DNA from: Hirudinaria manillensis
Taxonomy: Eukaryota; Annelida; Clitellata; Hirudinida; Hirudinidae
Direction: 5' to 3'
Length of the DNA stretch: 64,000 bases
Assembly: GCA_034509925.1 (NCBI GenBank)
Contig: CM067537.1
Span: forward strand, 9,442,001-9,506,000
Shown: positions 3,792 to 60,055 of the stretch, one piece after another
Layout: every line of letters starts with the position of its first letter
Numbering within the stretch: position 1 is the first letter of the stretch
Notes under the pieces: generated by a model
What the model saw: the letters and a program-made list of their open reading frames with translations, nothing else
The model's database searches: none
What the model was told of the DNA's origin: nothing
Translations under genes and position numbers: made by a program

Positions 3792-5797
3792 TGTTGCCAG
3801 AGAACGGCAGTTTTGAGATACGAACGGCTAAGTGCAACGTTTCGCACTTGAGGATGCCGTCATGTGTCCAAATCATGTCGTGATTGTTATGATCATTTGT
3901 TACGATTAAATATATTTTTTTTTATGAATACCATAAATATTTCACTGATGTGGAACAGAATCGTTTTAGCCATCTAACATTTTAACAGATCTAACGAATT
4001 TATCAGGATTTGACTTTTTATTTTTATGGTTATGGTAGTCATAGAACGTCGGGTCTCGTGGACCAATTCAAGATCTAGAATTAGTAAGCTACAAAACCTT
4101 GATGGCTATCTTGATATCCAAACAATCTAAAACCGGATCTAAAATCTGTAGCGATCTGTCGAGATCAGGTGCAGGGATGTTTAGGTTCAGATATGTTAGG
4201 ATTATTCAACAATCTATATGCAACATCATACAGTGATTATGGAAAACCAAAACTAAAAATAGAATTCATTTCTCAGTCATCACTTGAAACTTCGTTACGA
4301 GCTAGCCAGCAGACTTTTTTCACAAAATGTCAGAATAACCATTGCATAGCCTCAGTTTTGTCATGTTGAAATCTTGCTAAAAGTATAAACAACGACAACT
4401 TTAGTAAATAAAAACATTTCCTTGTAATACTAGAACAACTCGCAGTACAACTTGTGGTACAACTCGTAGTACAACTTGTAATAACCCATGAGATTCAAGT
4501 CATTCCTTAAGAAACACTTCAAAAGACACTCACAATGTGATCATGTGATCATGTGCCTCCCCATACAAAAAAATGCTACTTTTAAGACAATTAGGACAAA
4601 AGTAAATGAATGAATAACAGAGAGAAGTGGTTCTATAGTGAGGACTCAAGCAATATTCGGCAATATTAAGCAATGTTCAGCATCTCCAAGGACATAGTTC
4701 AAATAGGGATCAAACTATTAAGTGAAATCTTGTAATTTTGCCAGCTTAAAGCATGCCGTGAACAACAGTCGATCCTCATTATGAATTCAACGTAAGACGA
4801 GCAGGAAACATTTAAAATCTAAATCTTAAAAAACAAAGATCCACGACCATGCTCCATCAGATTAATCACATTTCTAGAATCATAAAATGCTAGACAGGCA
4901 AAGTCATAGTTGTCTGAATCTGTGTAATTAGCAAAAGGATGGCAAAAGGTATGTTGTCGGTAGAATTTAAATCCACGAGTCTTCAAAATCGTGATCGATG
5001 TTTGCTCAACGATGAAGATTTAAAAACTCGAGTAAATCCGAGTCGCAAAGCAGTAAAGCCTATTACGTATAAAAACGATAAGATTAAGAACCCGTCGTTA
5101 AAAATCATCCATAATTAAAATCAAGCCACGGCACGATGAGAACGAATCGAATAACATAAATTTCTAAAACAGCCAAATCGGGATACAAAAATTTCAGTTA
5201 AAATTAACATTCTTTGTCCAAAAAAAACGAAAAACAAAGAAAGCAAAGATAAACTCCGAACATCTTCAAAAAAAAACTAAATGCGTTCAAGGTTGGTATC
5301 AACACTAGTAGCCATTGATTCTCTTAAAGCACTACTTTCAATGAAGTAAGCAATTATTAATTTAGCAATGCTAATATATTATTTATATAATATATTTATT
5401 ATTTATATTCCATTAAATTCAGGTCAAAGCATCTGAAACGTTGAAATAAGAAGAAAGTTCCTTTTAGGGTCGTCGAGTCCGTATTCGTCGCTCAAATGCG
5501 TTCGCTTCGTGTTCCTGATGATGATAATTTAATGATAATAATTTAACGATAAGGTTTCAAACTAAGGTAAACAAATCTACTTTTTAAAACCTATGCAAAT
5601 ATATCATTATATAATTGATTATTATAACCCTAACCCTAATTAACAAATTCAACAACAGACAACAAAGGCAACTGAAAGTGTAATTTTAAGAAAAAATAGT
5701 TTGTCCAAAGTATCTTATGTGCACCTAAGCCGACCAATGGTATTTAAGGATAGAAACCGACCAATAGTATTTAAGGATAGAAACCGACCGATGTTAT
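3792..5797. other. Intergenic spacer between two convergent genes
   Basis: AT-rich sequence between the 3' ends of the PKC gene (+) and the LamG-WD40 receptor gene (-). No coding segment is convincing. It should contain both 3' UTRs; AT-rich sequence with ATTAAATAT near 3904 could serve PKC polyadenylation. A two-unit CCCTAA motif lies near 5627. Confidence 0.6.
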
Positions 5798-5810
5798 TTA
5801 AGGGTTGAAG
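5730..5810. repeat. 27-bp unit in three tandem copies spanning the receptor stop codon
   Basis: Three adjacent 27-base units at 5730-5756, 5757-5783 and 5784-5810, each beginning CCGACC and containing TATTTAAGG. Read on the minus strand, the first unit met contains the receptor's last sense codons and its TAA stop (5798-5800). The next two copies repeat the stop context in the 3' UTR. Confidence 0.9.
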
Positions 5811-8090
5811 GTCCTTCGATCGATGGTTGCCGTAGATCGAACCACTCTCAACATGATCAGTTTCCTGGCTCCTCCCTTATCGCCGAGAGCAACTACCGTC
5901 TTCTTATTGTTGCTAAGCAACACCTAACAAAAGTTAAAACGTTAACTTCACCTTTGTAATATTAACAATGTTATTTTCAATGCTATAATAATAATAATAA
6001 TAATAGTGATAATCATCATCATCATCGCTGCAAACAAACAAAAACCTTGAAGATGGTCATTCCCGCATCGATGGCAGCCACGGAGGTTCCGTCCGAGACT
6101 TTCCAAAGCCTGATGGTTCCGTCCCTGGATCCCGAACCTATCAGTTCGTTGTCAGGTGAAATAGTTGCACACCACACCTGCGACGAGGAAACAAGTGTTT
6201 TTTTAAAAATAAAGTATTCGAAGACGACGACTCCCGAAGTCGTTCGAACCTCGTCTCGGTGTCCGATGAGGGTGTGAACGAGATTCTCGCTTTCCACGTC
6301 CCACGCTTTCAGAGTTCCGTCGGCGGATGCGGACACGAGGAGCTGACCGTCCCTGCTCACGACGACCTCCTTGATCTCTCCCTGATGAGCCAACAATCCC
6401 GGACCTCCGATGCTTCGAACCTGTCTTCCGGTCTTCAAACTCCACACGACCATCTCCCCCCTCCTGGTGCCGGTAACCGCTTCTTTGTCGTTGAGAAGGG
6501 CCGTCACCTCCACCGCCGCATCCATCGCGGCGACTTTCGTGCCCGCTGCGCCCACGTCGGGAGAAGCCAAGTCGAAGGTCACGTAGTTGGCAGTTCCGTC
6601 GTAAGAGTTCTGGAAACCGGCCACGACGTAGCGCCCGTCCTTCGAGGAATTCAGGTAACTGGAATACAATTAATTCAGGTAATTGGAATACAATTAATTG
6701 TAATACAATTTTTATGTCTATTATTTCCAATCGATTTCTCATCAATAAACTCGTCCTAACCTGATGTGGTCTGCAAATCCGATGCTGGCATCGCACTTGA
6801 TGTGCCTCACTGGTTCGTTGTTTAGGATGTCCCAGATGACGATGGTCGTTCCTCCTCCGAACTTTTCGGTCCTTCCGAGCACCACTTTCTCTCCGTCGTT
6901 CATCATGCAGCTGGCCGTACACATCTCTGTCCTGCTCATTTCCAGAGGCTTACCAGTTTCAAAGTCCCAGACCTGGAGCAACAAAACAAAATCAATGAAT
7001 GGAAATATGAATAATGGCAACTCTTGAAGCTGATACGTCTCTTGGTATTTGTACCGAGTATGCAATCATTATCGACATCACACCTGCAGCCTTCTGTGAT
7101 GGACTTTGTTGCTCGAACCGGTCTCGTTCAGATCGACGGGCTCCAATTCTGCTACTTGGCCGACCAATAAGGTGTCTCCGTTTGCGAGGTGAAGGTCGGT
7201 CGAACCAAGCTCCTCCCCCCTCATGACTTTCACGAGTTCGCCGGACTGTCGACGAAGTTGTTAAATCGATTAGCCGACCGAGCGGAAATCAATTGTCACG
7301 TGATAACTAATCACTCTAACCTATAGAAAAGAGAAACAAAAAATTTGAAAAATGTCTTACCTTCAGATCCCACACTTGAGGCGGTCCGCAGTTTGAACCG
7401 GTCACGACGAATCTGCCGTTGTTGGTCATCTGGACGCAGTCGACCCTGATCTCCTCGGCGGTCACGAAACTCCTCTGACCTTGACCGAGCGTCGAGGAGC
7501 GTCCGAGAGTGGAATCGGGTCCCGTGAGTTGTCGTTGTTGTTGGATCATGCGCTGTTGTTGTTGCTGGGTGAAAATCTCCTGCTGGTTGAAACCTCCGTA
7601 ACTCAGGTCGACGTTCTTCATGGAGAATTGACCGGTGCCGAACTGGTTGAGCCCGAACTGCCCCCCGGGAGACGAAGGGAGGCTGAAGTTGTCCATGGGA
7701 ATTCCCCCTTGCTGGGTCAGTATCTGGTCAGTAGGAAGATTATTGCTATTTTCCTCTGCTTAATTATTGCTTAAACAAAATGCAACTCCTATTCTACCAG
7801 ATCTACTGGCAATCAATCATCAGACATTATCGCCTTTGTGCTTACCCGATAGCAACAATAGAGGATGCTTAATGAAATCAAAGCTCATGAAATTGGTGCA
7901 AAGTATTTTTTACGAAGTTGTAAGCGACCTGGCTACGTTCGTAGGAATAAGTGACCGATTGGTTGAGCGGTTGAGGAGGAGGCTCCTGGAATCCTTGCAG
8001 CCCTTGCACGTCTTGCCTGTATTCGGATGCAGTCGACCTGACAGTATGGTAGCCTGCAGGAGCATTGGCAGTTCCAGAAATATGGTAGCC
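5798..8090 (-). other. Cytoplasmic linker and WD40 beta-propeller of the receptor
   Basis: Exons 7929-8090, 7361-7723, 7084-7245, 6761-6972, 6250-6658, 6046-6177 and 5798-5923. The linker is Gln/Pro-rich and holds a poly-Gln run (IFTQQQQQRMIQQQRQ). Blade-ending strands are QVWDLK, QVWDFE, VIWDIL, VTFDLA, VVWSLK, KAWDVE and RLWKVS, with GH-type turns (LIGHRDE) and structural Asp residues (SASADGT, GSGSRDGT). The last exon gives another half-blade and ends in RRTFNP. No enzymatic motif is visible, so an intracellular protein scaffold is the natural inference. Confidence 0.88.
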
Positions 8091-11000
8091 CTGTAAGAAA
8101 ATGCATATAAATTCATAAGCATATCGTTACTGTTCAATCGTTTATGTTATTCTGTAACACGTTCATCATCTTCAATTCTAACCTGGATGGTTCCGCCCGT
8201 TCCTCCGGTGATGATCACTCCCGAATCCGTTTGCATCCCTCTCTGGTCCACGCCGTCGACTCCTCCGGTCGTCTTTGGCGCATTCATGGCAGGGAAGTGA
8301 TCCCTCAGGTCGGTGCCCGTCGGAACCCCGCTTTCCCCGTTCGCAGCTGCCGAGAGAAGAGGAGCGGCCGCGGACGACGTCGAGGGTTTGGAGCCTCCCA
8401 AGAGACCTGGCTTGAATTTGTAAAGAGCCCACATGGCAGAACTGGCGAGAAGGAGCGCCCCGATCATGGCTCCCGCCACTCCGGCCGCCCTGGCACCTCC
8501 TCCGTCGCCGGCCGGAACGACCGCGGCCTCTCCGATGACCTTTTCGAACACCGGTCCCCCCTCGGGGTCGAGTACGCCTCCGTTGCCCCAAGAGATTCCG
8601 GTGCCGTCTCCGGGGTCGTCGACGTTCTCGCCCGGGACGATCGGGGGTTTTATGCCCGGGGGGAGGGTGGTTCCTGGGGTGGGCTGTATGGGCCTGATAA
8701 TAATTTCATTCGTTACAAATATTATTAAAGATAACAAAGCAGGAACAAAGTCGACTGAATATATTGACAATAACATGACAACGAGCTGTGAGTCGTGATA
8801 TGGGACAATATCAACAATGTCAATAATTACATTTAATTAATTAACTTCTTCAGCAATAATTACATTTATTTAAGTAATTTCTTCAGAAAAATCTTAAAAG
8901 TCTCCACCGAGTGACAGAAGGAAACATGGTAACGTATTAAAGAACGCGTACGTCGTAACACGTCGGTACAAAGCACGTACATTAAAATCGAGAGAACTTA
9001 CGTGACTTTGGGGTAATGCTTCTCGACGTAGAAAGGATGAGTGGCATCGTAAACGTCTCCTCTGGTGTTCGTTTGACCATTTTCAATGACTCTCCATCCA
9101 TTAACATAAACACCTTTCGTGGATGGTATAAATTCACCGAGTTATAGCAGTTAGTGTGATATCATTATTTTTTAAACTAATTTAAACCAGAATTTATCTA
9201 TATTTATTTTATATCAATTTATTTATACTAACAGAGACTTAAAATTAAAGGTTCATTAAAGTTAACCACAAACAAAATAAGAGAACGAACCTGCTATGAT
9301 ACCATCAAAGTGTTTAATAATTTCATTTCTGGAATCCAAATCTCCGCCTAACTTGATGATTGACATGTCATCAAAAAGTACATTGGTCGCACCAGCTGTA
9401 ACAAATAAATATTCATTCAACAATAATTCAACACTCAAATGCAATCAAATATTCATAAATAAAATATTTACCATTAAAACTGATTATTCATCCACTAAAT
9501 ATTCAGAATTATTATTATTAAAAATAACACGACGTGCCGGCCGCTCGTGCCGGCCAAAGTCGAATCGCTAAATAACGGCGACGTCCGACGATGACGACGT
9601 CGGGAAGCAAAGAACCGAGACCGACCGAAGTCGATTCTCTTCTCGGGGTAATCGTCGACCCTCAGGTAGGCCCCCTCCCCCTCCCTGACGAAGACGACTC
9701 GATGAGGATGCCCGTCGCCGAAACTTCTGGTGCTCTCCGCGATTCGATGGATTCTGTCGCCGACTCTGTAAAGGGACACGACGTGTCCGTTCTCCTGACG
9801 ACGAAAGACGATAATAGTTTAACGATGTAACAGAGATAACAGGTCAACGATGTAACAGAGATAACTTGTCTTAACAGAGATAACAGGTCAACGATGTAAC
9901 AGAGATAATAGTTTAACAATGTAAGAGGTATCAATAATGTGTTAATACACAATACATTGAATGGATTGCACATAAGAAATTATTCATAAGTATTACCAAT
10001 AATATTAATTTCATCGGTCTATGGATTGCCGTCGTGCAACTAGTAATTATTTTCTTAAATTTTCCCCATTTCTACTCAATCATTGCTTATCAATCGATTG
10101 AATAATATTAGATTGAATAATATTATTATTTACTTGCAGTTATAAAGAAATAAAAGAATTACAGCAGAAAGATTAGAAAGAACACACAAATTATTAATTT
10201 AAATTTATTATAAAATTATCATAAAATTATTATAAACTTAATTGTTTCAACTCACGAGTTTTAATTCTATGAAATCTCCTCCAATTCCGTCTGCCCTGAG
10301 CAGCGTTCCGTTGTTTTCGTGGGTCACGAACATCAGCGAAATTCTGTCACCAGAGGTCGTCTTCGTAGGTTGGAGTCTCAAGATGGCGATGCCTTTATTT
10401 TCCCTCAACGAGAAGATGAAGCCACGTGCCTCTGCGGACGAACGATTGCAAAAGATAAGACATTGAAAGACCATTATTTGTTATTCGTTTGTTATTTATT
10501 TGTTATTTGTTATTAAGATCTTGTTATTCATATTCATATAAGATCCAAAAATAGAATATTTAAGATCATAACATTAAGAGCGACAAATAAAACGTCAAGA
10601 CGTTAAAACGTACCGTCGTTGCATTTGTTTCCGACATAAGAAGTCATGTTGCAGTCGCACCAGAAACCGTCCGATCTCTCGTGACATTCTCCTCCGTAGC
10701 TGCAAATTCCTGGCACGCAGTAACCGCTTGCATCTGAAGTACGAAAAAATATTCAAATTACGATCCGAAATCATAAAAACATCAAAATCCGCCGACGTAC
10801 GACTCTCGCCTTTCGATCGATTGGAATCGATCGGTCCGACTACTGACGACAAAAATCCTGCTCGGCAAGTAATAGAAATAATTAATGACTTACTGTTATT
10901 AACGACGTGATGTTATTAACAACATATTGTTATTAACGACGTAATGTTATTAACAACATATTTTTACTAACGACATATTGTTATTACCAACATATTGTTA

Positions 11001-14000
11001 TTAACAACATATTTTTATTAACAACATATTGTTATCAACGACGTAATGTTATTAACAACATATTTTTATTAACGACGTAATGTTAAAACAACTTAAATTT
11101 CCATCATTCCTTCCTACCTGAACATCCCGCGGTGATGAACGGACCGAGATGAGAATCGACGTCGAGTCGAATGAATTTCCTGTCCACGACGAGATTTGCC
11201 AAACAACCCGAGTAGCCCTTCCCGGATCGGAGGGCGCTCGGCAGACGTTCCTTGATCTCGGCGGGCACGTTGCCGAGGTAAAGTCTGTCCTTCAGGTCCA
11301 GGGTGTGTCTGCTGGGTCTGCGGAACGTGCGGGGTTTTAGAACGACGGAAAGGAACGACGAAACGAGTCTGTCGAAAGAGAGACTCACTCGAATTGCAGA
11401 ACGTTTCTAAACTTCTGATCGACGACGACGTGATATAGGTCGTTCGACTTCTGAGAGATGACGATTTCGTGCCACTTGTCGTCGTTCAAGCGACCTGCAG
11501 ATGACGTCACTTCCTTGACGCCCGTTCCGTCGTTGGCCGCGACGTGAAGGCGTCCGTCCACGAGTTCCACTGGAAAAAAGGTCGAAACGTCGGAGGCGAG
11601 TACAAAAGCGTCGTAAAATCTAGAAACGAACCCGCGAAGAAATCTTCCTCGTGTCCGGGGTTGTAGAGGAGGAGGACGTCCGACTCCTTCGTCTTGAACA
11701 TGAAAGTCACGTTGGTGTCCCCGAGGAATTGAAGAGGATCGAGGTAGAGGAAGGCGTCGGAATTCGCCCTGACGGTGACGGGGTTGTGCGGCACGACCCT
11801 CTCCTCGCCCGTGACGTTGAAAGTCGCGACGACGTTCGAGTCGGGGTTCGCGACGCCGATTCTAGGCAAATAATCGACTCCGTCGACGAACAAATTCTGA
11901 ACGTGTCCGACGAACGAACGTTCTTCGTCCCTTCCGAGAACGATTCGATCGATCAGGAAGTCGAAGTCCTCTGCAGGGAACGTGACTGAAAAGTAATGAA
12001 AAAGCCATGCAAAAGTAATGCAAAAGATGACGGACTCAACGACGGACTCAGAGGACAACATTTTGAAAATCAAATGCAACTCACAGGTGGTCTTCTCGCA
12101 GTCGTCGACGTAAGCTTCGAGGTGATTGGCTCTTCTCTTTATGTGCACGGTGTGCCATTGGTTGTCGTTGAGAGGATGTGCACATTTGAATGATTCAAAA
12201 ATGGACTTTAAAGAAAAACAATAAATAGGGATGAAGTTAACATTAATAATTATTGTTGCTGTTACACATATTTTTGGAATGAACTTATTATTATTATTAT
12301 TAATATTAATATTATTATTATTTACAATTATTTATAAACTGACACTTTTAGCATTGCCAAAGCGACTCTCCACTCTTCCGATTCCTCCATCCAAGGTGAC
12401 CTTGAGAAGGTCAAAATTGCGGTAGTTGTTGGCGGTGAAGAGATGGACATCCTCCTTTGGGGTTTTGAATCTGACGGAGATGTCGTTGGTGTGGGTGACC
12501 TTTGTGGGTGTAAAGGTTATCTCAAATCGATCTTTATCTCCTAAGTGGGCAAACCCTGCAACTAAAAGACAAGGAGACAAATTTCAGATATTTGTTCTGG
12601 AAACAAAATCATTGACAGTCAATAGTATAATAATAATAATAATAATAAAATAATAATAATAATAATAATAATAGTCCTATTTTCATTGAATAAATCACAT
12701 AAATACACATAAATCCTACAATTATTTAATTTTTTCTAAATTTGTTTTCTGATTGGTGTTCAGAATCAATATTCAGTCTCCAGTGGGAATTAAATGAATG
12801 CACCGAACCACGACCGACCTAGCTGGCAGTTCCTTCCCGTGAACGTCGTATCCGAGCAGTCGCAACGATACCCTTTCTGAACTTCGCTGCAGATTCCTCC
12901 GTTTCTGCAGGGTCGATGAGAGCAGAATTCCAAAGACGGCGTGCACTGGGGCCTGATCGGCCCGACCGCCCTGCCGAGGGCCTCGACGAGGTCCAAGGTT
13001 TCTCCGCTGTCGAACCTGACTCCCCACACGCAGCCCTGGAAAAATTCTCGTCTCTCCTTGTTCCAGGAGTGCCACGGAAGGTCCCGATCCGTGCCGCCAA
13101 GGTACAGGGTTTTATCCTTGTGAGAGAAAATGTCGAGGGATCTGTTCCTGCCTTGCACCAATTCGTGGGTGACCGTCTGGTCGTCCAAGGTCAACTTCAG
13201 TCGGTCGTTACTGCTCGCCACTTTAATGTAGTGCTCCTTGTTGTCGTCGACCCTCGACGCTCCGTGACCGAACCTCAGCCTCTGATAACCTCGTCCGAAG
13301 TCCGCCACGAGGTAAGGGGTGCCGTCGTACAACTCGATCAGGGCGGGGTTGTATGGGTACGACCGGTGCTGAAGAGCAGATGGATGATGATGATGATAAT
13401 TATATTAGGTATAGTCTTGGTTAATAACGACGTGGCATGATCATCATCATAAAGCGTAATGTTCAAACATTAAATAATTAATATCCATTTAGAGATCAAC
13501 CTGAATATAAGCGAGTATGCCCCTAGGTTGTATGGTCCTGAACTTCATCTCGTAGCTTGAAACTCCGTCCTCTGGATGAGGTGTCTTGATACCAGAAATG
13601 CTCACGAATCCAGTTCCATCAAAAGTTACGGGTACGTCTTGTTTCGGCTTGCTCTGGACGGCGACGATGATGGTAGACTCAATTTATTTATTCCATTTAT
13701 TAATTACATTAATTAATTTCATGTTTACACGAAGCATAACAAAAGAGCGACCTTTTCCTCTCCTTCGGTCACGTGGAACGTGATCGGCGACGGATGTCGA
13801 AGTCCCACGTAGTCGTCTCTTTCGTCCGTCCACGACCCCGTGACGTTCACGAACGGCGGATACGGTCGAATGAACACCAGTCCTTTGTAATCGAAGTCTT
13901 GAGGGAAGTTTTCTCCTTTGTGCCAAATCTTCGAGGAATAAATTAAAAACCGACTCAAAACGGTTCTTTGAAACATTCATTTGCAAAACGTTCATTCGTT

Positions 14001-17000
14001 TGCAACACGTTCATTCATTTGAATTCATTACCTCCCTGATTTTTCCATCAAAATTGGAGTTGATGAAGTGATGGGTGAGATTCCAGGTTTGGCTGGAACC
14101 TCCGACGTAAGTCTGTCGAGGCCCGAAGAACGTGACCGGGAAATCTACTTCGAAGGTTTTATCTTGACCATCCACGAGGACGTCGATCTGTCGTTAACGA
14201 ATAATAATTAGTTAATGATCAATAATAATTAGTCAACGAGTCGTAAACAAAGTAACGGCTTCGCCTCGTTTCGTCGGCAAAGGACGGGTTTCCAGGCGAA
14301 TGTAAAGTTAGACATTTCTAACCGATAATTAAGCGGTTATTATGAAACGCGTCGACTTTAATTACTAATAACTTCGTGCAAACATTATTTTGTTACTAGA
14401 TCGTAGTAAATGTTAAAACCTCTTTGTCATTTCTCGATATGATGATCTCATGCCATTGGTTGTTATTCATTTCAGGCCGACCAATGGGAGTCCTGGCCAC
14501 TTTACCATCTCGGGTTATGACAAAGTACAGCTGTCCACCCTAAGGAAGGACAACAACAAATGTTGTTTATCACTATCATCATCATCATCATCATCATCAG
14601 CAGCACTACGATCACGAAGTATCGAACCTTGATCACGAGATGGACGTTATTGGATGGATCCCCATTGAACCAAAGGAGTCCGTCGGGATTGTTAGTCAAG
14701 AAGTTAATCTTCATTTTCTCCTCGCGACTCGGCCTCAAGAATTCCTGAGGAAGGTGGGAAAGGTCATAGACGTACCAAGTTCTTCCGTCGAATATCATCC
14801 TCTTGTTAGATCCCGGATAGACGGAAGGAAAGACGAAAGGCGGAGAAGGAGTCGCGATTCCCCAGGGAAGCGTGGGACCCGAAGTCCATTCTGACGGTCG
14901 AACGCGTACTCGTTTTAAAACGCGTGTGTTTTAAATTATTTTCATTCGATATAATAATATGATATTTAATAAATTTTAAAAAATTTCACAAAAGCAGTCG
15001 GATCATTGGCCAAAGAGGGATCGCTTCGTACCCGATGAAATGAGACCCTTCCTGACGAGTAAATCCCTCCTGGCCTCCCAGAACTGCATGTCGTCGAACA
15101 CCGCGCTCGCGAACTTCCCGCCGAACGTCTCCGCGTTCGCACGTCCGACGTAGAATTTCCTGAGGCTGTTAAAGGTGTGCTGTCCGCCCGGATTGGCCTC
15201 TCCCACGGTGGAGCTCGCCTTCTCTCCGTTGACGTACAAAGACGCACCTTCGACGGGGGACCAGGAGAGGTCGACCTTCAAAACAAATGTGCTTCGATTA
15301 ATTTTTAAGGATTTTTTCTTGCAGATATTTTGGCGATCGTCCGTCGAACGTCTCGTTCGTTCGTGCTTCGTTCGTTTTTCCGACTCACCTGGTACCAGGT
15401 GTCGGGTGATAACTCGCCACTCGAGACTTTCCACATTTTATAAGAAGTCCTCAGGTCTGCAACGAGCCTACAAAGATTTTTTTATGTTTTTTCTAATAAC
15501 ATAACAACAACAACAACAACAATAATAATAATAATAACAATAAAAATAAATACAACAGCATGGTTCAGATATTATAGGATGAAGTGAGAAGACAACAATA
15601 ATGACTAAATTGATTTTATAACAAAGGATGGATGGATGGATGAATGGCAAAAACTTAAGAATTACCTCCTATTTCTGAGGTAAACATCTATGGGAGCACT
15701 GGAGAGCAAGTATTGGTTGTCCAGAATTTGGTTCGGTTTCAATTTCATTCGCAGGGTGAAACCTTGCTGGCAATCTTCCAAGTTTCCTAAAAATATTAAA
15801 TTTAGGAAGGTAAATGATGCAGTATTTGATTCTTTTAAATTAATAAATTAAAAATGCAAAAAATAATTCGTATAAAACACATTTTGATGTATTTCTGCTA
15901 ATCGATGGGAAGGGTTGTCTTATTTTATACAATTAGTTAAGGTTTATTAATTAATTAATTATTAATGCTCCACAAAAGGAAAGTTTTGACCTCGACAGAT
16001 GAACTGGCTGTCTGCACTTTCGAGGTATTGATTGTACCCGTCCAGTTCGACTCCCGTGGCGTTGATCGCAGGAACGGTGAATGCGTTTCCGTAGACCCTG
16101 ACCAATTGGTAAGGATTCACGAGTCGATTGCCGGCTATGACGTCCATGTCGAGGATGATCCTGTTTATGACTGGAAAAGAAAGCGAGTCGTGAACGCGAG
16201 GCTACGACCGAAAGACGGAAGAGTAAAAGATGCGATTCGCACTGACTCGGGTCGAGATCCAATGCGTCCCTGCTGGCATACCAGAACTGCAGTTCGTCGA
16301 CGCTGACGTTGCCCGTCTGCCTGCCGCCGACCTCCATGGGCCAACCCAGGTACACCTCGCGATTTTGAGGTTCCGGATGGCGGATCGTCTCGGGAACTTC
16401 TTTGCTGGCCACTTTCCGATCGTCCACCCAAACTTCGGCTCCCTTCTCCGGATGCCACGACAGGTCCAATTGTTGCCAAGTGTTGGGTTTTAGGACGTTC
16501 CTGGCTTCGATATTCCAAACGTAAGTGCCATTTTGGAAGTTGACTTGGAGCTGAGGGAAGAAACGATAACGATAATATTAATTTAAATTAACAAAAACGA
16601 CGGAGTCGCTCGTGAAAGCTCATAAAGTTAAAACATGTTTTTATTTACAAATGTTAAGAATTCTGAATCCAAACAGTTAGCGACATAACAAATTATTACT
16701 TAACTAACCTCGTCTCCGATCAGGGACAGGGAGTAAGATCCGGAAGTCAGGATCCTTCCGACCTCCCCGGACGCACGAATCAACATCGATATCGTCAGGC
16801 CGTTCGGGCACAGGGCAACGTTACCCATGCAAATTCTACTTTGATCCTGGAAAGAGGCGTAAGCCCTTGGGACGAGAACGAGACCGTTGCCCACTCTTCC
16901 CTGGCCGAGCGTTGCACCGTTGCGAAGATAAATGTCAAAGTCGGGATGATAAACTCTGCTTCCATCTTGTATTTCAAATGGAAAGTGGATGAACGTGATG

Positions 17001-17858
17001 GGATCTAAAAGAGAAACAACAAAACTTTTTGTTTGAAATCAAAATTTCAGCAATTATGAAAGCAAAAAGTAAATCAAAGATTCTGAAAATTTGCATTCAG
17101 AAGAACAAATTGTAATAGTAATCGTAATCGTAATTCTAGCTCTTGGAACATAACCTTCCAGCAAACAAAAACAGTAACAGAGCATTATGCTTTGTACCAC
17201 CCATACTAGTTGTAAACTGGTTACTTAGCCTATTATGATATAAAGACCTGTAGCTTATTACTAATGCACTACTGAGATTATTACTGATATAATCAATTGT
17301 TTCTAATCAATTGACTTTTTTAATTGCCCAACAATTCAATTCTGTACAAACCTCTCACAATGCTTTTAGAGCCAATCAGAGAATCCCTATTCGAGAACCA
17401 ATATTCGAATTCGTCGATGGTCGCGTCTGCATTTTGCGCCACCCCCCCGTCGTCCGGCTCCCCGGGATTGGCGGCCCCGACGAGTACGCGCGCATTTCGA
17501 CTGGCGAAGCCTCTGATCGAGGACCGATAGGCCGAACAGGTGCCCGCGGGACGATTGTTGACGTAAACTTTGAGGCCGGCGGTCGGTTGCCACGTGTACT
17601 CGACGAAATACCACTTGCCAGTTCGGAGACCCGGTACGATGACCTGCCACCTCTTCCCTCCGATGTTAACCACCACAAACAGTTTCTCACCACTGGCTGT
17701 ATAAACCTTTAATGGACAAACAGTCGATGTTCTTGAGTTGAAAATACAACAGATATTAAATCATGATATTTGGATAGAAGATATTCAAGGCAAATATCAA
17801 TGATTTAGGATAAATATCATTTAATATAGTGATAAACTTTATATTTTTAAACTATTTA

Positions 17859-17903
<45 letters not shown>

Positions 17904-20568
17904 TAAAACATCAAAACCTGAAAGACCAAAAATAAGCGACACTTACCTGGAGACCTCCCCCATTGGAAAAGAGATATCCGTGATCGGGGAAGGAGTTGAA
18001 CCTGACCCACATCGATCCCGTTATTCCGTCCTCCTGGCAGAGGATCAAGTCCCCGAGACAGTTGTCCCTGTGGCTTCCCAAGTCCAGATATTGACCGACG
18101 CCGTTGAAATTCAAAGCGTTCGCCACTTTCCCGCCGACCGAGGCAGGTTCCCCGTGAACCGAGACGTCGAGGAATCGGTGGACGAGTTTGTTGCCTCGGA
18201 CTTCGTCCATGTTCAGGTGAACGTGGTCCGACAATTGGCCTTCGAATTATTATTAAAATTATTAGAAATTAAAACGTAATGTTATTGCTTACTTTGCTTA
18301 CCACCAACACTACAATGACATGAGTTAGCAAGTTTAACAATAAAAATTACAAGCAACAAACCTCTCTTAATGAAATTAAACTTGGTGAGGTAATCTCTGT
18401 TTGCAAACCAATATTCAAACTCATCTACAGTGAATGTTCCATACAGAGAGTTTGGTCTGAGCAAAAAAGTGAATTTTCAATTACTATTATTAATTATTAT
18501 TATTAGTAGTAGTAGTAGTAGTATTACTATTATTATTATACTGCACTATTACTACTGGTGACAACCTGGTGCCGTCCCCACGTCCGATGTAGACGTCGCT
18601 CGAAGGCTCCCCGAGCACTCCGACCTTCGGTCGACCTTCTGAGTCGGATTCTCCTTCCAGTCGTCCGTCGACGTAAAACTTCAACTTTCCACCTCTGGCG
18701 TGAGGGTCAAAGGTCACTTCAACAAACTGCCACTTGTCCTTCACCAGGGACGTTCGTCCTCTCGTCACTAACGTCCATTCTTTGTCCGAGGTCCGAGCAG
18801 AGACCATCGTCTTTAATTACAGGTAATTTATTTGATTAATATTTTGTTTATTATTTTATTATTATTTTGTTTATTATTTTATTATTATTTTGTTTATTAT
18901 TTTGTCATTTTAATTCGATTCGTCGTCACGGACGTGCGTCGTAGCTCACCTTTCCTCCCTCCTGCCACATTTGGAACCCGTAAGTTCCGGTAGAAAAGAA
19001 CTCCATGCCGTCCGAGAGTTCTCCCGGCTTGACCCACATGGAGACGGTGGCTCCGGCTTTGCAGAAGTCGAGGTTGCCGAGGCAGGGCTGGACGTGGCCC
19101 TGACGAGCGTCCGTGCGGATGAACTGACCTCTCCCGTTCAGGTCGATGGCCTCTCGGACCTTCCCCCTCACAATCGTCGGGTTGTTGACGACGGCAATGG
19201 AAAGGTTCCCATGGGGCATCCTGCCGCTGTACACGTCGAATTGGTCCATGGGGACGTGGTAGCGGATCGGTCGTCCTGCATAAATTAATAAATTACCATC
19301 GGGTCTCGAGCCACTAAACAGGACATGATTTTGTTACAAACTTTATGTAATTCCACATCATCATCATTATTAATAATAATAATAATATTAATCATTATCA
19401 CCATCAACATCTTCCACGCCAACACAAAAACCCACCTCGAACGATGTATCCGAGGACTTCCAGCATGTTTCGATCTGCAGGCCACAATTCAAAGTCGTCG
19501 AGAGTGAAGGCAGCTTGACCCAAGTTGTGGCTTCGTCGGCCAAATTCGATGTTCGAATCCGGAAAGTCATCGGGGGGCATCCTCTCCCTGCAGGACCTGG
19601 CTGTGGAGACCCATTGTTGGTCCACATAGAGAGTAATAACTTCATCTGGACTCATGGATAGCTCCACAAAGTACCATTGACCTTCAATTCCTCTCTTCCA
19701 CGACACCTTGCAAGTAATAAATTATTTCATATTATTTGATGTAATCGATTAAATTTCTTTAACGTTAATAAGATCTTTATTCGATCCCCGACTAAAACCG
19801 AATATTATTTCCCCGATATTAACGATAATAATAATAATAATATTATTAAACCAATATTTTGATGTAAGACGGTAGAAACCTACATTCCAGAGTTGATTGT
19901 CAAACAGAGCCTCTCCGACCAGTGCTTTATCTTTGTAGTATAACTTGAGGCCGTAATCGCCGGTGCTGACGTAGTGTCCTCCGTTCTTGAAAGGTCCGAA
20001 CTTCATCCAACCGGAAAGGAGGAACCCGTTGAAACAACCGGAAACGTTGCCGTAGCAACGGTCCTTCAAGTCGTCCGAGAAGAAGGTCGTCTGCCCGTCG
20101 AATTCGAGGGCGTCGGCGCTCTTTCCCGTTTGGACGAACTTCGGCATCGTGGGATCTCCCTGCCTGAAGCGAATATCTCCTACGGGCAGTCTGTACGCAT
20201 CGATGCGACCTGGAAATTTATTCTGTTATAAACGCATTACCATCGTTTCCATGCTGCCTATTCAAAATCGTGACGACGACGATGATGATGATTTTGACCA
20301 CCTGTGGAAGGTTATTTGCGAGATGATTAAGTCGCACAGGTGAGGTTAGTCATAAGTGCAGAAAGACAAAATGACGGCAAATAAAGAAACTAATTTAGCA
20401 ATTTTCCTCGGTTAAATAAACGTATTTCAACCTGATGACAGAAAAATGCAAAAGGCTTAAATTTTTAAAACTGCTCCTACCAATGTTTTTACATGATTTT
20501 TCACATCAATAATTTGGGAAAATAAAATTCAAACTTTGAATGATAAAAAATATATATAATATATTTTA

Positions 20569-20613
<45 letters not shown>

Positions 20614-22943
20614 ATGACACGGTGAATGTGTATACACAATGTACATACATATAACATACAAATTGCATACCAATGAATCGAATTGTCTTGTCATCCAACT
20701 CGGTCATCCAGAAGTGAACGTCATCGAAGATGATCGAATGATCGTACGAAGAATAACTGTCCGACCTCAACGACCTTCCGAACCAGAACTGCCTCGGTTC
20801 GTTCATTCTGACCCTGGAAGCGTAGCTATCAGAAGGATGTCCTCTCACCTTAAAGCAATTTAATGATAATTTATACAAATAAATGTATAAATAAATCTAC
20901 ATAACACCATAACGTGTTTAAAAATTATTATCGATCGTAGAAAAAAAGCCGGGGGCACCGACCCTGAGACCGTCGACGTAGAGGCGAACTCCGTTGCCCG
21001 AAGAAAAGGTGGCTAGGACGTGGTGCCATCTGCCGGGAAGAATGGAATTAGATTCGCCGACGTACTTCCTCGTGAGACCGTCTTTGAGTTTGAACGTGAA
21101 GCTCAGTCTTCCGTGCCGGTCCAGCGACATGGCCACCCCGTGGTTGTCGTGGAGGTCGCCTCCCGACGAGAGGTACACCCGTTCTTCGCCGGGGAGGCTG
21201 GGCAAGTTCATCCAGAAACCGATGGAATAACCTACGATCGGGAAATGCATCCACGATTTGAAATTTTAATAATCATCATCATCATCATCTTAGCAGTCAA
21301 GGAGTGTTCATCAGGTTTTTAAATTTTCTGATGAGTAACAAACATCATCAAATAGGTACGCATTTCTGTTCAAGGATATCATTATCAGCACCTCCACCTC
21401 AATGCCACAAACATCTGGAAGAATGCAACTCAAAAGTTCCAAGGCAGCTGCCCTGATAGCAGTAAGCAAGGTAGAAACACGTTGCATGCAACCATCCTCG
21501 TGATTCACATGCGCACATGCGCACATGAGCACACAAACGTTCTCAACAAACTGCAGGAAGGAAATGGCCAAATATCTTGGTGGAACTATTTTGGAGTAAG
21601 ACGTGAAGATAAATAGCAGAATTATTGATGATGATGATGATATCCTAAAATATGTGCATATCAAGTGTCAGAAGTTTAAAAGCTATTTGAGTGCATATTT
21701 AATATTTTATTTAATAAATGCATATTTAAAGACTTTTACAAGGAATTGATAATTAAACACAACCATCAGATGAAGATCGATTAAATGTCAATAACTGTCT
21801 AAAAGTGAGAAGAGGAATGAGGGAATGACAAATGACCAGAGAAAGGAATGAAGAGCAAGGAATCCTCCAACAAGCAGTTAGTTACAGCAAATACTTCTCT
21901 CTGAAAGAGATCCCATAAGCTAAGCAACAGTTAGATAATAACATAAACGTAACAACGTTAAATCTTCAGAGAGACTCTATGATGAGATTGAATTTGGGCA
22001 GGCAGATAGATAATAGCATCAGTAGTTGAACTAGAAAATGGATTCCAACCTCAAGCCAACAGGCTGATTGCATTGTTATTTTATGCCTAAAGAATCTAAT
22101 TGAAACAATAACGTAAAAATGTCAATATTAATATCGGTATTGTTGGTAATTATTTCAAAGCAAGACTATAATTGCAATACCTGAGATGGCAGGGCCGCTA
22201 ATGGAAGTGAGTCATGACTGAGAAACGTATTAAGGAGATATTAATGAGTTTGAGAGAAAGTTAGGATAACAATAACTTAGAGTGCAAGAACATAGAATGC
22301 CATGGGTCTTTGGGTTCATTGCAAAAGTCCGGAGACGTAGGAGCCATGGATGAACCAACCAGTAAGGAAACCGAGCAATCTAAGCAGTAGTTGGGCTTCA
22401 CTGGTTCAATAAAGTGTTTGTGATTGATATATTTTCATACTTTGTGATTCCTTTCAGATGAAAGTTCATCTTAGTTGATGTCAATATTTAACAAATTGTC
22501 TAACGCATTGAGTGAGAACTGAGTGAGTGAATGAGTGAATAAAAGAGATTGCAGTTCACAGACAAGGAATGCAATCAACCTTGGAACTGACTCAGCCATG
22601 ATGATAACTTACATTTCTGGAAAGTTTTATCAAATCATGAATGAGTAAATCAAATCATGAACCACAGGTGATGGAGGCATCTCATTCCAAGCTGAGTAAT
22701 GTTGATTAAAATGTAGCATTTTATCAGTAACGTGTTTCTAGATATAGAGCTGTTATTTATACATTGTTATTTATACATTGTTGTGGTCTCCCACAAAATA
22801 CAATACTTGCTCTATCGATGTCATCAACATCATCATCATAATTATTGGATAAATTGCAAATATCAGTTTATCAGTTAATTAATGCTTAAGAAAAACATTA
22901 TCAAAACTATGCCCTTATGAATGAATCTTTAAACTCATCCATA

Positions 22944-22975
<32 letters not shown>

Positions 22976-23894
22976 TATCATTATCGACAAGTTATTGGTC
23001 CTTCAATATAAAAAAGTTCCACAGGCATTGAATGCTACTTTCCACCTCCTCCTTTGTAATCATCTTCATTCTCATCGCCGTAATCGTCATCACCAAGATC
23101 ATCATCATCATCATCATCATCATGACTAAACAAATCAACAAAAGCTTTCAAGTGGTTCTTTAAAATCCTACTTAAGTTTATAACATCAAATAAAACTCTC
23201 AAGTTCTAACTCCAACGATGATGATGATGATGAAAGTATCGATGATGATGACGGTGAAAGTATTGATGACGATCGTTATCTCTCCTCCAAAAGGGAAGTA
23301 CGAGGCCAACAACGTCGACGAAACAACGGCATCGCCTCACCTTCTCGGCAATAGACGAGATCGAAGAAACACTCGTGCACCATGGTTCCTCCCCTGCTCA
23401 CCGAAGCGCTGCTTCGACTCCCGCCCTGGAACATCAGGGCATTTTTCCGGACCCCTCGCACCGGATTCGGGGCGCCGTTCGTAGTTGCATTCAAACCCGA
23501 AGGACTTTGCATGTTGCCCTCCACGAAAAGGTCCATCGGTAATTCGTAGTGGACGGGTACTTCTGGAAGAAGAAAAGTAATGTCATAATGAATCCGGTGA
23601 CTAAAGCAATCGAGGCATTAGAAAGATGTTGGAAAAGATCAAGATACAATGCATCATTGAATCTTCGTTGACCAACAAAAACATAAAGCGACCTTCATCC
23701 ATCTCGATGATGATGTTGATGGTTTCGTTGACCAGCCTGTCTTTGTCCTCGTCCGTAATTCTGACTTCCCTCTGGAAGGTCGTCTTCACGTAGCCCCTGG
23801 TCTTTACGTTGCTCCATCTGGATTCCCCCGATCCGATGATGGAGATCAATAGGGCCAGGCCAATCAAAGAAAATTGGCCCAATTTGTAAGTCAT
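5798..23894 (-). CDS. Giant neurexin/axotactin-like LamG-EGF transmembrane receptor with a cytoplasmic WD40 propeller
   Basis: I traced 41 exons from ATG (23892-23894) to TAA (5798-5800); every junction keeps phase and the exons total 9282 bases (3093 residues). Order: signal peptide (1-25); six LamG-like/concanavalin modules (about 68-1336); LG1, LG2, EGF, LG3, LG4, EGF, LG5 (about 1336-2402); proline-rich stalk; membrane span (about 2471-2493); Q/P-rich linker; seven WD-type blades plus a closing segment (about 2700-3093). LG and EGF order matches the C-terminal part of alpha-neurexins and, from memory, axotactin, suggesting a cell-surface adhesion or organising receptor. It lacks the short neurexin/CASPR tail that binds PDZ or band 4.1 proteins. 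The 3' gene neighbour is convergent, and the large intron after exon 2 (21232-23340) carries only simple repeats that I can see. I do not recall a described receptor with this tail; ligand and partners are unknown. Confidence 0.88.
6651..6705. repeat. Duplicated splice-acceptor region
   Basis: The sequence around the acceptor of the receptor exon ending at 6658 (minus strand TGTATTCCAG then TTACCTGAATT) is repeated about 25 bases upstream in the intron. In that copy the AG is replaced by AA (TGTATTCCAA then TTACCTGAATT). Confidence 0.75.
8183..8693 (-). other. Stalk, transmembrane span and proximal cytoplasmic tail exon of the receptor
   Basis: One 511-base exon. It begins with a Pro/Gly/Thr-rich stalk (PIQPTPGTTLPPG) and an acidic stretch. 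A single hydrophobic segment follows (AAGVAGAMIGALLLASSAMW), then a Lys-bearing stop-transfer ALYKFKPG. The tail is Ser/Ala/Gly-rich. The exon enters in phase 2 and leaves in phase 0, so it switches from the phase-1-dominated extracellular part to the phase-0 cytoplasmic part. Confidence 0.85.
9824..9932. repeat. Imperfect tandem repeat in a receptor intron
   Basis: Copies of AACAGAGATAA alternate with GTCAACGATGT or GTTTAACAATG in the intron between the exons ending at 9794 and 10256. Simple decayed minisatellite. Confidence 0.7.
10890..11096. repeat. Minisatellite of about 18 bp in the intron between LG4 and EGF2 exons
   Basis: About eleven imperfect copies of a unit resembling TGTTATTAACAACATAT, with alternating ACGACGTAA and ACAACATAT variants, fill most of the intron between 10733 and 11118. 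Confidence 0.85.
12627..12673. repeat. (AAT)n microsatellite
   Basis: ATAATAATA run in the receptor intron between exons 12344-12561 and 12819-13368. Similar runs occur near 15505, 17862-17902 and 20572-20611 in other introns of the same gene. Confidence 0.9.
15032..23562 (-). other. Six tandem LamG-like/concanavalin modules of the receptor
   Basis: Exons by module: M1 23341-23562, 20963-21231, 20671-20848; M2 19884-20209, 19436-19706; M3 18950-19275, 18566-18810, 18362-18456; M4 17947-18239, 17352-17706; M5 16709-17004, 16247-16550; M6 15991-16170, 15666-15786, 15389-15467, 15032-15275. Every module is a multiple of three bases (199-223 residues) and is flanked by phase-1 introns. All six contain a C-x6-C octamer (CFFDLVYC, CYGNVSGC, CLGNLDFC, CLGDLILC, CMGNVALC, CRGNLEDC). 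All contain W-[YQH]-type strand segments and a closing D-[ED]-[FLMV]-x-[FYL]-W motif such as DEFEYWFANRD. I infer jelly-roll folds that arose by tandem duplication. Confidence 0.85.
22943..23123. repeat. (ATC)n microsatellites in the large receptor intron
   Basis: Two ATC runs (22943-22980 and 23098-23123), with a related GAT run near 23216-23233, lie in the 2.1-kb intron after receptor exon 2. Confidence 0.9.
23693..23894 (-). other. First coding exon of the receptor: signal peptide
   Basis: ATG at 23892-23894 opens a classic secretory leader: a short Lys-containing start, hydrophobic core LIGLALLISIIG, then small residues at a likely cleavage site near SGES. The exon ends in phase 1 at EMDE(G), matching the next exon (23341-23562). 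Confidence 0.85.
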
Positions 23895-32016: not shown

Positions 32017-35000
32017 TCAGATATCCTTTCTGTCATAACAGGACCAACACACCCTGACCGGATAGGTCCAGTTTCTCGACATGACGGTCCTGTGGCGAGA
32101 ACAAGCGTCGCAGACGCCTTCTCCGCATCCTCTGCAGTGGTGTATACTTAATATTTCTAGAGACTCCTCGTTGGCCTTGCCCGAGAACCTCATCTGGCCG
32201 TTGCCATCCCTGACCATTTTTGGCACTGGGGTACTGAATTTCCTTTTACAGATGCAACAATCCTCTATCAATTCGTCTTTTACCCAATATGAGGGCCGTG
32301 CACTTTCTTTGATGACCTCTAGGTGGAAAGCAATTTCAAGTGGATGAGTTTTACAAGATTATTATTAAAACTTTCTTAATCTACATAAAGATCTTCAAAG
32401 CAACAGGAAAAAATTTTAAACATAATAGAAAATGCAACCCACCCATTGGATATTTGATGGCAGTTGAGAGAACTCCCAATGTGTTTGTAAAATACTCTCC
32501 AACTTTTCTAGGTAGGAGCTGGCTAGTTGAAATTTCTGGTTTGTAGTGGTCTGCTGTAAAAACTGATGTTGATGACAAAGCACGTGCCAAGGATATTCTT
32601 AAGTTAAACGTTTCGATCGGTATAAATATGATCTCACCCTCCAAAGGATTTGAAAAGCAATCGTCGCAAACCCTCACTGGCTCTTCCCCCCATCCCTTTT
32701 CGGGCACGGGCCTTTTGTTCGTCGAACAGGAGTGGCAGACGCATTTCCCGCACCATCTGCAGTGATGTCTCGTCTTCAGGTTTCCAAACATTTTTCCACA
32801 ACGGCTACAGTTCTGTCGATCGCAAATCATTTTTAAAAATAAAGGATATCTTTTCAATAATTTTAATAAAGTTAATTTAAACAATTCTAGCAAAGGTTTT
32901 TAATTTTTTAATGCAACATACTGGTTTGGTGTTGGGTTCCCAGTATGTCGGCGCAATTTTATCGGCAGCCCAGTTACTGACTGCTTCAACAGGTGCTGCC
33001 CCAACACTGGCCAGAACTCCCCCGATCTGAGTGACTTGTTCGATTAACCTTCGCCCGGTATAATCGTCGTCTTGAAATTCTTTCTCTCCCTGTCAAAATT
33101 ATTTCGAAGTAACATTACAATCAAATTCCATTTGATCATTTTCAGTACAAGTTGTTCAAACTGTTCAACTTGAGTTTAAAACTCACATCACTCCAGACGT
33201 GGTAGTAATCGGTGACGGCTGCCGTGTCAACCGAATCATTTCCATACCAATATTTGTTGCTGGTGTAAATTACTCCACACATTTTGCAATTCAATATATA
33301 CCTAGACATTAGTATATGAATTTATTAAATTCCCGTGTATCTGATCAAAATCATGTAAGGGAGATGTCAAATTAGAATATTTTGAATCCAGTCTCACCCA
33401 GACCACTTCAATTTTGTCAAACTGACAATAAGACCAAAATCTGATGGAGGCATTTTTGGCACAACCCTATTCTTTTCATTGTTTCTTTCATAACAAGTCT
33501 GCAAAAAGATTTGCACATTTAATGTAACAATATTTTAAAATGTTACTCGTGCCTTCTGTTGTTAGAGCAATAATTACGACACAAATGGTAGAAAAATACA
33601 TTGAACTTACTCTGCAATACATGATAGAATTTTGGTGCTTATTGTTGCTCCTGCAAGAACTTCCAGAAGAATGAGGAATGCCAGACTTCAAGTGGTTGCT
33701 GACTTCATCACAGGACACCCTGCAATGCAACCAAATATAGTCAAATCATTAAAAAAACCACTAAAAATTCATTGAATGCTGAGTAAATCTTTTTTAATTA
33801 TAAAACAATTGTTGAAAAAACAAAAGAACATAATTATATTCATACCTGCAAATCTCACAGTGGACTCTGCAGGTAAAAAACTCTTCGAGGTAAAATGAAT
33901 TGCTGGGCTCGAGGTTACCATAACGTGACATTAATCTCTGAAAACAAAAAACAAATTCAATTAAAAATCAATAAAATATGAAATAAAGTTGTTAATATAA
34001 AATTTATAACAGGATACCTGCAAGGCTCTATAAACAAAGACTGGTTTTCTAGGACATCTAAACTTATTATTGAAAAGAATCTTTTGTATTTCACTATTCA
34101 CTCTCCCAAATGAAACTTCTTTCGTGTTCTTGTGGAGATAATGCAGAGACGAATAGAAAATGAAGCTCTCTTTTATTTTCTGCCTCATTCTCTGCTCGAT
34201 GGCATCGGCATATCCTGATAAACGTTTATGTTCGTGTTACGATTGTTTGCATTAATTTGATAATGTTGAAGCTTACAATGAATTAATTTTGAATAAAAAA
34301 ATAATTCTTCTATTGAATTGCACATTGAATAGATAGTAAGAACAAATTACTACCAACTTTCAGAATGTTCTTGACCGACTACGATCGGAGTTTCGTGAAG
34401 GATGATCAAGTCGGGTCCGAGAGTCCTGAGGTTATTTTTCCCGACCTTTAGCTGTCCGCACATGGCTTCCAAAAACGGTCCGTAGTTTTCCATGAAAGTC
34501 AAGGATAACTCCATGAGCAAGTGCACGTTGTCGTTATGGATCACGTGATTGTTTTGGTGGTAAACGACGACATCCGACAGAGCCATTATCTTGAAATTGA
34601 AATAAAAAAATAAATATAAGAGAGCACTAAGAAGGATGAAGACAATAATTGTAGAAAATGGATAACAAACCTTCAACAAGACCCAAGCATTGGGGTTATT
34701 TTTGATGGACTGTATACCCTCCACCATCAAAATGATGGCTGTTAAGGATTGACAATAAGCAGCCCATAAACCCCCAATGGTTGTGGGCCTGAAAATGACC
34801 ACTCCATTGTAGAATGTCTGATTGATCACTTCTGCCAGAGCATTGCTATCGTCTCCGAAAACAGAAATAACTTTCACCTTCATGTCGATCTCGCAACCTA
34901 ATTTCATTATGAAGTCTTCGACGGTCTTAACCTTCAAAGAATACAGTTTGTTAATTAGTTAGGTAATAACTAAATCTTCACATTATACAAATTATATAAT

Positions 35001-53905: not shown

Positions 53906-60055
<6,150 letters not shown>

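Follow-up and report, generated by a model that had tools for sequence, protein, structure and literature searches.

The stretch of DNA analysed here (the window) comprises 64,000 nucleotides (nt) of the leech Hirudinaria manillensis (assembly GCA_034509925.1, contig CM067537.1, positions 9,442,001 to 9,506,000). On its minus strand lies a gene that appears to join a neurexin-like extracellular region, by way of a membrane span and a linker, to a series of WD40 units. Coordinates are in window numbering unless prefixed by a contig (C2, C5, C6 and so on). In the order in which the gene is read, its parts are as follows.

23820..23894, minus strand: start codon and signal peptide MTYKLGQFSLIGLALLISIIGSGES, in exon 1 (23693-23894); from sequence and hydropathy
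15032..23562, minus strand: exons 2-17, six tandem LamG_3 (ConA-like) repeats; PF13385 in 2 + 4 stretches, E 1.2e-21 and 2.3e-40
9002..14890, minus strand: exons 18-33, LamG-LamG-EGF-LamG-LamG-EGF-LamG, equivalent to neurexin LNS2 to LNS6; PF02210 and PDB 3qcw
12819..12933, minus strand: first EGF module (amino acids (aa) 1771-1808); PF00008, E 8e-05
10614..10733, minus strand: second EGF module (exon 29, aa 2164-2203); cysteine pattern by eye, inside the collinear neurexin alignment
8183..8693, minus strand: exon 34, with stalk, membrane span and start of the predicted cytoplasmic linker; gene model, homologous exon in both paralogues
8423..8479, minus strand: predicted membrane span (aa 2464-2482), VAGAMIGALLLASSAMWAL, followed by YKFKPG; hydropathy
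8225..8242, minus strand: RGMQTD, a conserved linker motif resembling an LC8/DYNLL site; pattern match in all three paralogues
7929..8090, minus strand: exon 35, predicted cytoplasmic linker; gene model
7361..7723, minus strand: exon 36, Gln-rich linker, then WD unit 1 from about 7501; gene model and repeat hidden Markov model (HMM), 12.8 bits in the first round
7084..7245, minus strand: exon 37, WD unit 2; motif and spacing
6761..6972, minus strand: exon 38, end of WD unit 2 and WD unit 3; motif and spacing
6250..6658, minus strand: exon 39, WD units 4, 5 and 6; Pfam WD40 families and repeat HMM
6046..6177, minus strand: exon 40, WD unit 7; repeat HMM, 67.0 bits in the first round
5798..5923, minus strand: exon 41, blade-8-like or closing strands and stop codon; gene model, missed by the repeat HMM
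5395..5533, minus strand: poly(A)-signal-like ATTAAA (5533) and AATAAA (5400), the first such signals past the stop

The hand-refined model of this gene runs from 23894 to 5798 and has 41 exons, with GT-AG borders at all 40 introns; its 9252 nt (divisible by three) encode 3083 aa and one terminal stop. The exon count of the earlier note on this DNA (41), together with its start, its stop and its membrane exon (8183-8693), agrees with this independent model. Its coding length is likewise divisible by three, but was given as 9282 nt; because the lengths differ by 30 nt, the two models must differ in some splice choices. A gene finder of our own (a Viterbi program that admits GT-AG introns only and permits any number of genes per stretch) was trained on 1578 codons of extracellular exons chosen by eye. 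Its best path was a single gene leading from 23894 through the membrane exon to the WD40 exons; it ended at 6022 because the last short intron or introns had been read through. Retrained on exons 1-33 of the refined model, the program returned one gene (23894-5798) of 43 exons. A 42-nt exon of the first model (10842-10801) was dropped on refinement. As a control the plus strand was scored (861.4 vs 1840.0), and we think that the high control value reflects exons richer in G+C than introns. The earlier note had regarded a poly(A) site between the membrane exon and the WD40 exons as fatal to a single gene: neither AATAAA nor ATTAAA occurs there, and the minus strand stays free of both as far as the stop at 5798.

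Two further features of the gene were noted. Intron 39 (6178-6249, 72 nt) is stop-free in frame, and its retention would place 24 extra residues inside the WD40 region. The intron following exon 28 contains a tandem array of 17/34/51-bp periodicity (10881-11092).

Domains of the predicted protein

The product of exons 18-33 contains five stretches of PF02210 (LamG_2; E 1.3e-89), and the membrane-proximal ectodomain is collinear with neurexin-1-alpha (PDB 3qcw), the longest stretch covering 573-1216 (E 1.4e-112). From the end of the first EGF onward a single unbroken alignment extends over 678-1211 of 3qcw. Pfam recognises only one EGF in the window protein, the second being assigned from its cysteines. 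Laminin and agrin chains in the PDB score below those of alpha-neurexins, and single-domain matches to the first LamG include 2h0b and 6pnp (both neurexin-1), which we take to be LNS2 of that protein. The LamG_3 array, queried as a 644-residue piece, finds a single weak match in the PDB, to an S-layer protein. No Pfam match to a discoidin or fibrinogen domain occurs in the window gene, and tblastn with the N-termini of two paralogues (paralogues 2 and 3, described below) gives no convincing match to LNS1-EGF1 in the window. The features that characterise the neurexin superfamily – LamG/LNS and EGF modules in neurexin order, and one membrane span – are all present. By its ectodomain the window gene thus belongs to the neurexin superfamily; by its tail and N-terminus it is neither an alpha-neurexin nor a CASPR.

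Hydropathy of the membrane span (1.85) is the maximum for the protein and that of the signal peptide (1.79) the second-highest peak; the third (1.52) falls in the LamG_3 array. Type I topology is predicted from the signal peptide, from the presence of just one span and from the basic sequence YKFKPG that follows it. The span is followed by 601 residues (687 in paralogue 2, 781 in paralogue 3), beginning with a linker of ~210 residues that is rich in G, Q, S and T and ending in RRTFNP. All three paralogues match the pattern [KR]xxQT[DE] once in their C-terminal parts (RGMQTD, RGNQTD and RPTQTD). For comparison, the motif published for LC8/DYNLL (PMC3078936) is [D/S] K X [T/V/I] Q [T/V] [D/E], which RPTQTD of paralogue 3 suits well except for R in place of K. 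Pairing of tails by LC8 may be taken as a lead, not as a result.

The WD40 units were scored with a repeat HMM seeded with WDR5-like repeats plus units 6 and 7 of paralogues 1 (the window gene) and 2; unit 1 lay outside the seed. In the first round units 6, 7 and 1 of the window gene scored 60.4, 67.0 and 12.8 bits. Units 4 and 5 reached 19.5 and 24.7 bits only once the HMM had been iterated on this WD40 family, a procedure that favours them. When profiles were aligned (hhalign) with a WDR5-like gene from this genome, the stretch from the end of unit 5 to unit 7 gave a probability of 98.6. Where the earlier note counted at least seven WD-type blades, units 1, 6 and 7 are thus clear, units 4 and 5 emerge only after iteration, and for units 2 and 3 the count is carried by motif and spacing. 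The predicted blade number is seven or eight, with a propeller as the candidate fold. WDxR, the motif of DCAF-type WD40 proteins, has no occurrence in any of the three paralogues, and a scan of prokaryote contigs with the WD40 profile gave 15 pattern matches but no relative.

Paralogues and the age of the fusion

The genome to which the window belongs (148 Mb, 23 contigs) was searched with segments of the protein. Membrane exon plus linker matched the window, C6:2.63 Mb and C6:8.16 Mb and nowhere else; the genes at these loci are referred to as paralogues 1, 2 and 3, respectively. The WD40 query picked up another locus, on C6, as six segments, of which five were 51-69% identical and the sixth 41%; among its 31 matches, 12 belong to the window gene and paralogue 2, while the remaining 19 reach no more than 49% identity (over 39 aa) and fall outside this subtype. 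Paralogue 2 matches the window protein in order, from the LamG_3 repeats through the last WD unit; paralogue 3 has the same order, with a diverged WD40 region. At all three loci found with the membrane exon, WD40 lies downstream on the same strand. LamG_3 was matched nine times in the genome, three of these away from the three loci (C8, C9 and C10).

The most direct evidence comes from paralogue 2, where membrane span and first WD unit occupy one stop-free frame of 447 codons (C6:2629231-2627891) and the fusion therefore requires no splicing. In 200 single-base shuffles of this 38-kb locus the longest stop-free run was 209 codons. Between the membrane span and the first WD unit no poly(A)-like signals are found in paralogues 2 and 3. 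At the N-terminus of paralogue 2 a LamG-EGF pair aligns to 3qcw 9-218 (E 2.6e-45; three pieces joined by eye). With this LNS1-EGF1-like pair, paralogue 2 therefore reads as a full alpha-neurexin ectodomain with the LamG_3 array inserted after EGF1; the N-terminus of paralogue 3 has a LamG that looks similar.

An intronless WDR5-like frame of 378 codons (L035 5603-6736, plus strand) lies antisense between the WD40 exons of paralogue 3 and looks like a retrogene. C6:8155987-8156253 (plus strand) was considered as WD40 of paralogue 3 and rejected, since it belongs to this antisense frame; paralogue 3 has its own WD40 on the minus strand.

Intron positions bear on the age of the arrangement. In an alignment of the C-terminal parts, the three genes share introns, identical in position and phase, at columns 60, 157, 769, 833 and 1089, and the last three of these (each of phase 0) lie inside WD40. 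Two further positions are near each other among the paralogues (about 120 and about 200). The linker has two introns in paralogue 1, one in paralogue 3 and none in paralogue 2, and WD40 introns unique to one gene occur in paralogue 1 (931 and 1133) and paralogue 2 (947 and 1008). Because WD40 introns are shared, the common ancestor of the three genes already had WD40: the fusion is older than the duplications, and the two extra copies indicate that it is real.

Paralogues 1 and 2 are 59.0% identical in WD40 (232/393) and 62.2% in the membrane segment, that is, the transmembrane and juxtamembrane residues (28/45). Corresponding values are 43.0% for the last LamG (77/179), 31.9% for the stalk (15/47) and 30.5% for the linker (58/190). 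That WD40 and the membrane segment are the least changed of these five C-terminal regions fits a function that depends on WD40.

A further neurexin-type locus was found on C5. At 6.335 Mb a start resembling a signal peptide, together with LamG and EGF, matches neurexin-1-alpha 4-228 (E 9.2e-38). More LamG exons lie downstream on this strand, and C5:6344872-6345501 (L043, plus strand) is an open frame that encodes a membrane span and then a 52-residue tail ending EWYV. This ending resembles the PDZ-binding end of neurexins. These data suggest that a conventional neurexin has been kept beside the WD40-tailed genes, the C5 exons being candidates for a single gene. The syndecan-type family PF01034 has 13 matches in the genome, none of them at the three loci or in their tails, although this search is insensitive to 4.1- and PDZ-binding tails because it also misses the short-tailed C5 locus; of four matches inspected, two end in tails of syndecan type (EFFA and EFYA at their ends).

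Elsewhere in the genome, LamG exons and a Kunitz array lie ~20 kb apart on one strand (C2:1550812-1552877 and C2:1572749-1581621, minus strand) and mark a possible true axotactin site. A chromosomal copy of COX1 (L009, C9:3026446-3027786) ties with the mitochondrial contig (L010, C23) and is either a recent nuclear copy or an assembly artefact. On the mitochondrial contig TGA is read inside COX1, and one strand carries, in this order, COX1, COX2, COX3, ND6, CYTB, ND4, ND1, ND3 and ND2 (frames by eye, COX1 alone being family-matched; part of the contig is N), a gene order that points to an annelid. In the window itself, a FYVE zinc finger exon (32381-32899, minus strand) lies upstream of the receptor on the same strand, and a Hedgehog gene occupies 53858-60052 on the plus strand (HH_signal exons 53858-54259 and 55055-55414, Hint exon 58961-60052). 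The window also contains a hexamer array (AGTGAT, about 195 copies, 41016-42188), in which several frames are open, and an (AAT) array of 119 copies (56530-56882).

Interpretation and alternatives

The earlier note had proposed a neurexin-like receptor in frame with WD40, and domain searches, two paralogues of the same layout and the single-frame fusion of paralogue 2 all bear this out. Signal peptide, LamG_3 array, LNS/EGF core, span, linker and WD40 follow one another in the same order in all three paralogues. We consider it likely that these genes encode single-pass type I receptors of the neurexin superfamily in which an in-frame linker and WD40 would form a built-in docking tail. The LNS/LamG ectodomain would bind partners on other cells or in the matrix. 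Ordinary neurexins recruit scaffolds via short PDZ- and band 4.1-binding tails; here WD40 may replace such a tail as a built-in cytoplasmic docking platform. More tentatively, the R-x-x-Q-T-D motif of the linker might recruit an LC8/DYNLL dimer and so pair two tails.

Several observations weigh against this reading or parts of it. The fusion is known here from genomic sequence alone, and paralogues 2 and 3 do have AATAAA-like signals in introns further along their WD40 parts. Cytoplasmic placement of WD40 comes from topology reasoning, and sequon densities do not separate the two sides of the membrane (per 100 aa: ectodomain 0.62, linker 0.95, WD40 0.51). WD units 2 and 3 score poorly, at 5.0 and 1.0 bits, the value for unit 3 being below the 1.7 bits reached by the best of 50 shuffles; both units rest on WD motif and spacing. 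Exon 39 alone was predicted to be mostly strands at a predicted local distance difference test score (pLDDT) of 47.1, which is unreliable and was not used as evidence. Between paralogues 3 and 1 identity is 26.2% in WD40 (100/382) but 39.8% in the last LamG (70/176): WD40 is not uniformly constrained, because that of paralogue 3 has drifted more than its LamG. Finally, at a position for which the published LC8 motif calls for T, V or I, two of the three paralogues carry M or N.

Among alternatives, the one that survives best, somewhat unlikely as we judge it, is that a choice of splicing yields both the WD40 form and a short-tailed form in which the intron following exon 34 or exon 35 is retained. 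Neurexin genes undergo extensive alternative splicing, read-through meets a stop 11 codons beyond exon 34 and 16 codons beyond exon 35, and the short intron 39 is open throughout. Opposed to this, the introns after exons 34 and 35 contain no poly(A)-like signal, and the model of paralogue 2 has no introns at these two places.

We think it rather unlikely that axotactin has its annelid orthologue in this gene and that axotactins in general bear the same tail unnoticed. Axotactin, which the earlier note named for comparison, is a secreted protein. The Kunitz domain, named in the published figure key described below, has no Pfam match in the window gene, and none of its 32 genome matches falls at the three loci. 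In the accessible part of PMC12414531 axotactin is shown as a member of the neurexin superfamily, to which the window gene also belongs; the key to the superfamily figure, axotactin included, names LamG, EGF, discoidin, fibrinogen and Kunitz but not WD40, and WD40 has no occurrence in the accessible text of that paper.

Could the tail act away from the membrane? Shedding and intramembrane cleavage would then free linker and WD40 as a releasable effector, an arrangement that we regard as improbable. Ectodomain shedding and intramembrane cleavage are known for other type I receptors, and a ~210-residue linker of the composition described above is consistent with release.

Another alternative is that two genes adjoin each other – a short-tailed neurexin-like receptor ending at 7878 and a WD40 gene starting from the ATG at 7696. 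In its favour, a forced break between membrane exon and WD40 lowered the Viterbi score by just 11.1 log units (1828.9 vs 1840.0), of which 8 are a fixed gene-start penalty, and the window alone therefore favours a single gene without proving it. What makes two genes highly improbable is the single open frame that holds both parts in paralogue 2, on which, rather than on the window score alone, the rejection is based; the order common to the three loci and the lack of poly(A)-like signals between the parts, in the window gene as in paralogues 2 and 3, speak against them too. A pseudogene or misassembly is extremely unlikely: 3083 codons without a stop and three loci on two chromosome-scale contigs contradict it, and no point in its favour was found.

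The preferred reading, a neurexin-superfamily receptor with a WD40 tail, can be extended to a lineage of propeller-tailed neurexins, arisen from neurexin duplicates, that would have gained an outer LamG_3 array and an inner WD40 scaffold before its own duplication, kept a short-tailed neurexin alongside, and paired its tails through LC8. We advance this extension tentatively, at somewhat less than even confidence. If true, recognition and scaffold would be united in one chain. Neurexin relatives with a fused scaffold-type domain provide a natural test of receptor-scaffold coupling, in which one may ask what WD40 interacts with and whether it takes over the role of PDZ or band 4.1 scaffolds. 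An exon that encodes both the membrane span and the first WD unit is also a clear marker for tracing the fusion across animals.

Comparison with known systems

A literature search by title and start of abstract, with most subscription journals and all protein databases outside its coverage, returned no description of such a LamG/neurexin-WD40 fusion; in the accessible part of PMC8006247, WD40 belongs to Lgl. With alpha-neurexins the window gene has in common the order LNS2-LNS3-EGF2-LNS4-LNS5-EGF3-LNS6-membrane, collinear with neurexin-1-alpha. It differs in having six LamG_3 repeats ahead of LNS2, where the LNS1-EGF1 pair of alpha-neurexins is found in paralogue 2 but not in the window gene, and in having, instead of a short tail, about 600 predicted cytoplasmic residues with WD40. 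CASPR, neurexin IV, ITX-1 and NLR-1 are, like the window gene, LamG-EGF receptors with one membrane span. CASPR, however, has discoidin and a fibrinogen-like region, and C. elegans members of the CASPR type are described with short tails in the accessible part of PMC12414531.

In the tail, WD units 6 and 7 are canonical, as in WD40 proteins of the WDR5 and G-beta type, whereas units 1-5 are diverged. Unlike those proteins, this WD40 region is fused to a receptor, and it has no close match elsewhere in the genome. SCAP and Sec12/PREB are membrane proteins with cytosolic WD40; they reside in the endoplasmic reticulum and have no adhesion-type ectodomain, but they carry WD40 on the side of the membrane that is proposed for it in the window protein.

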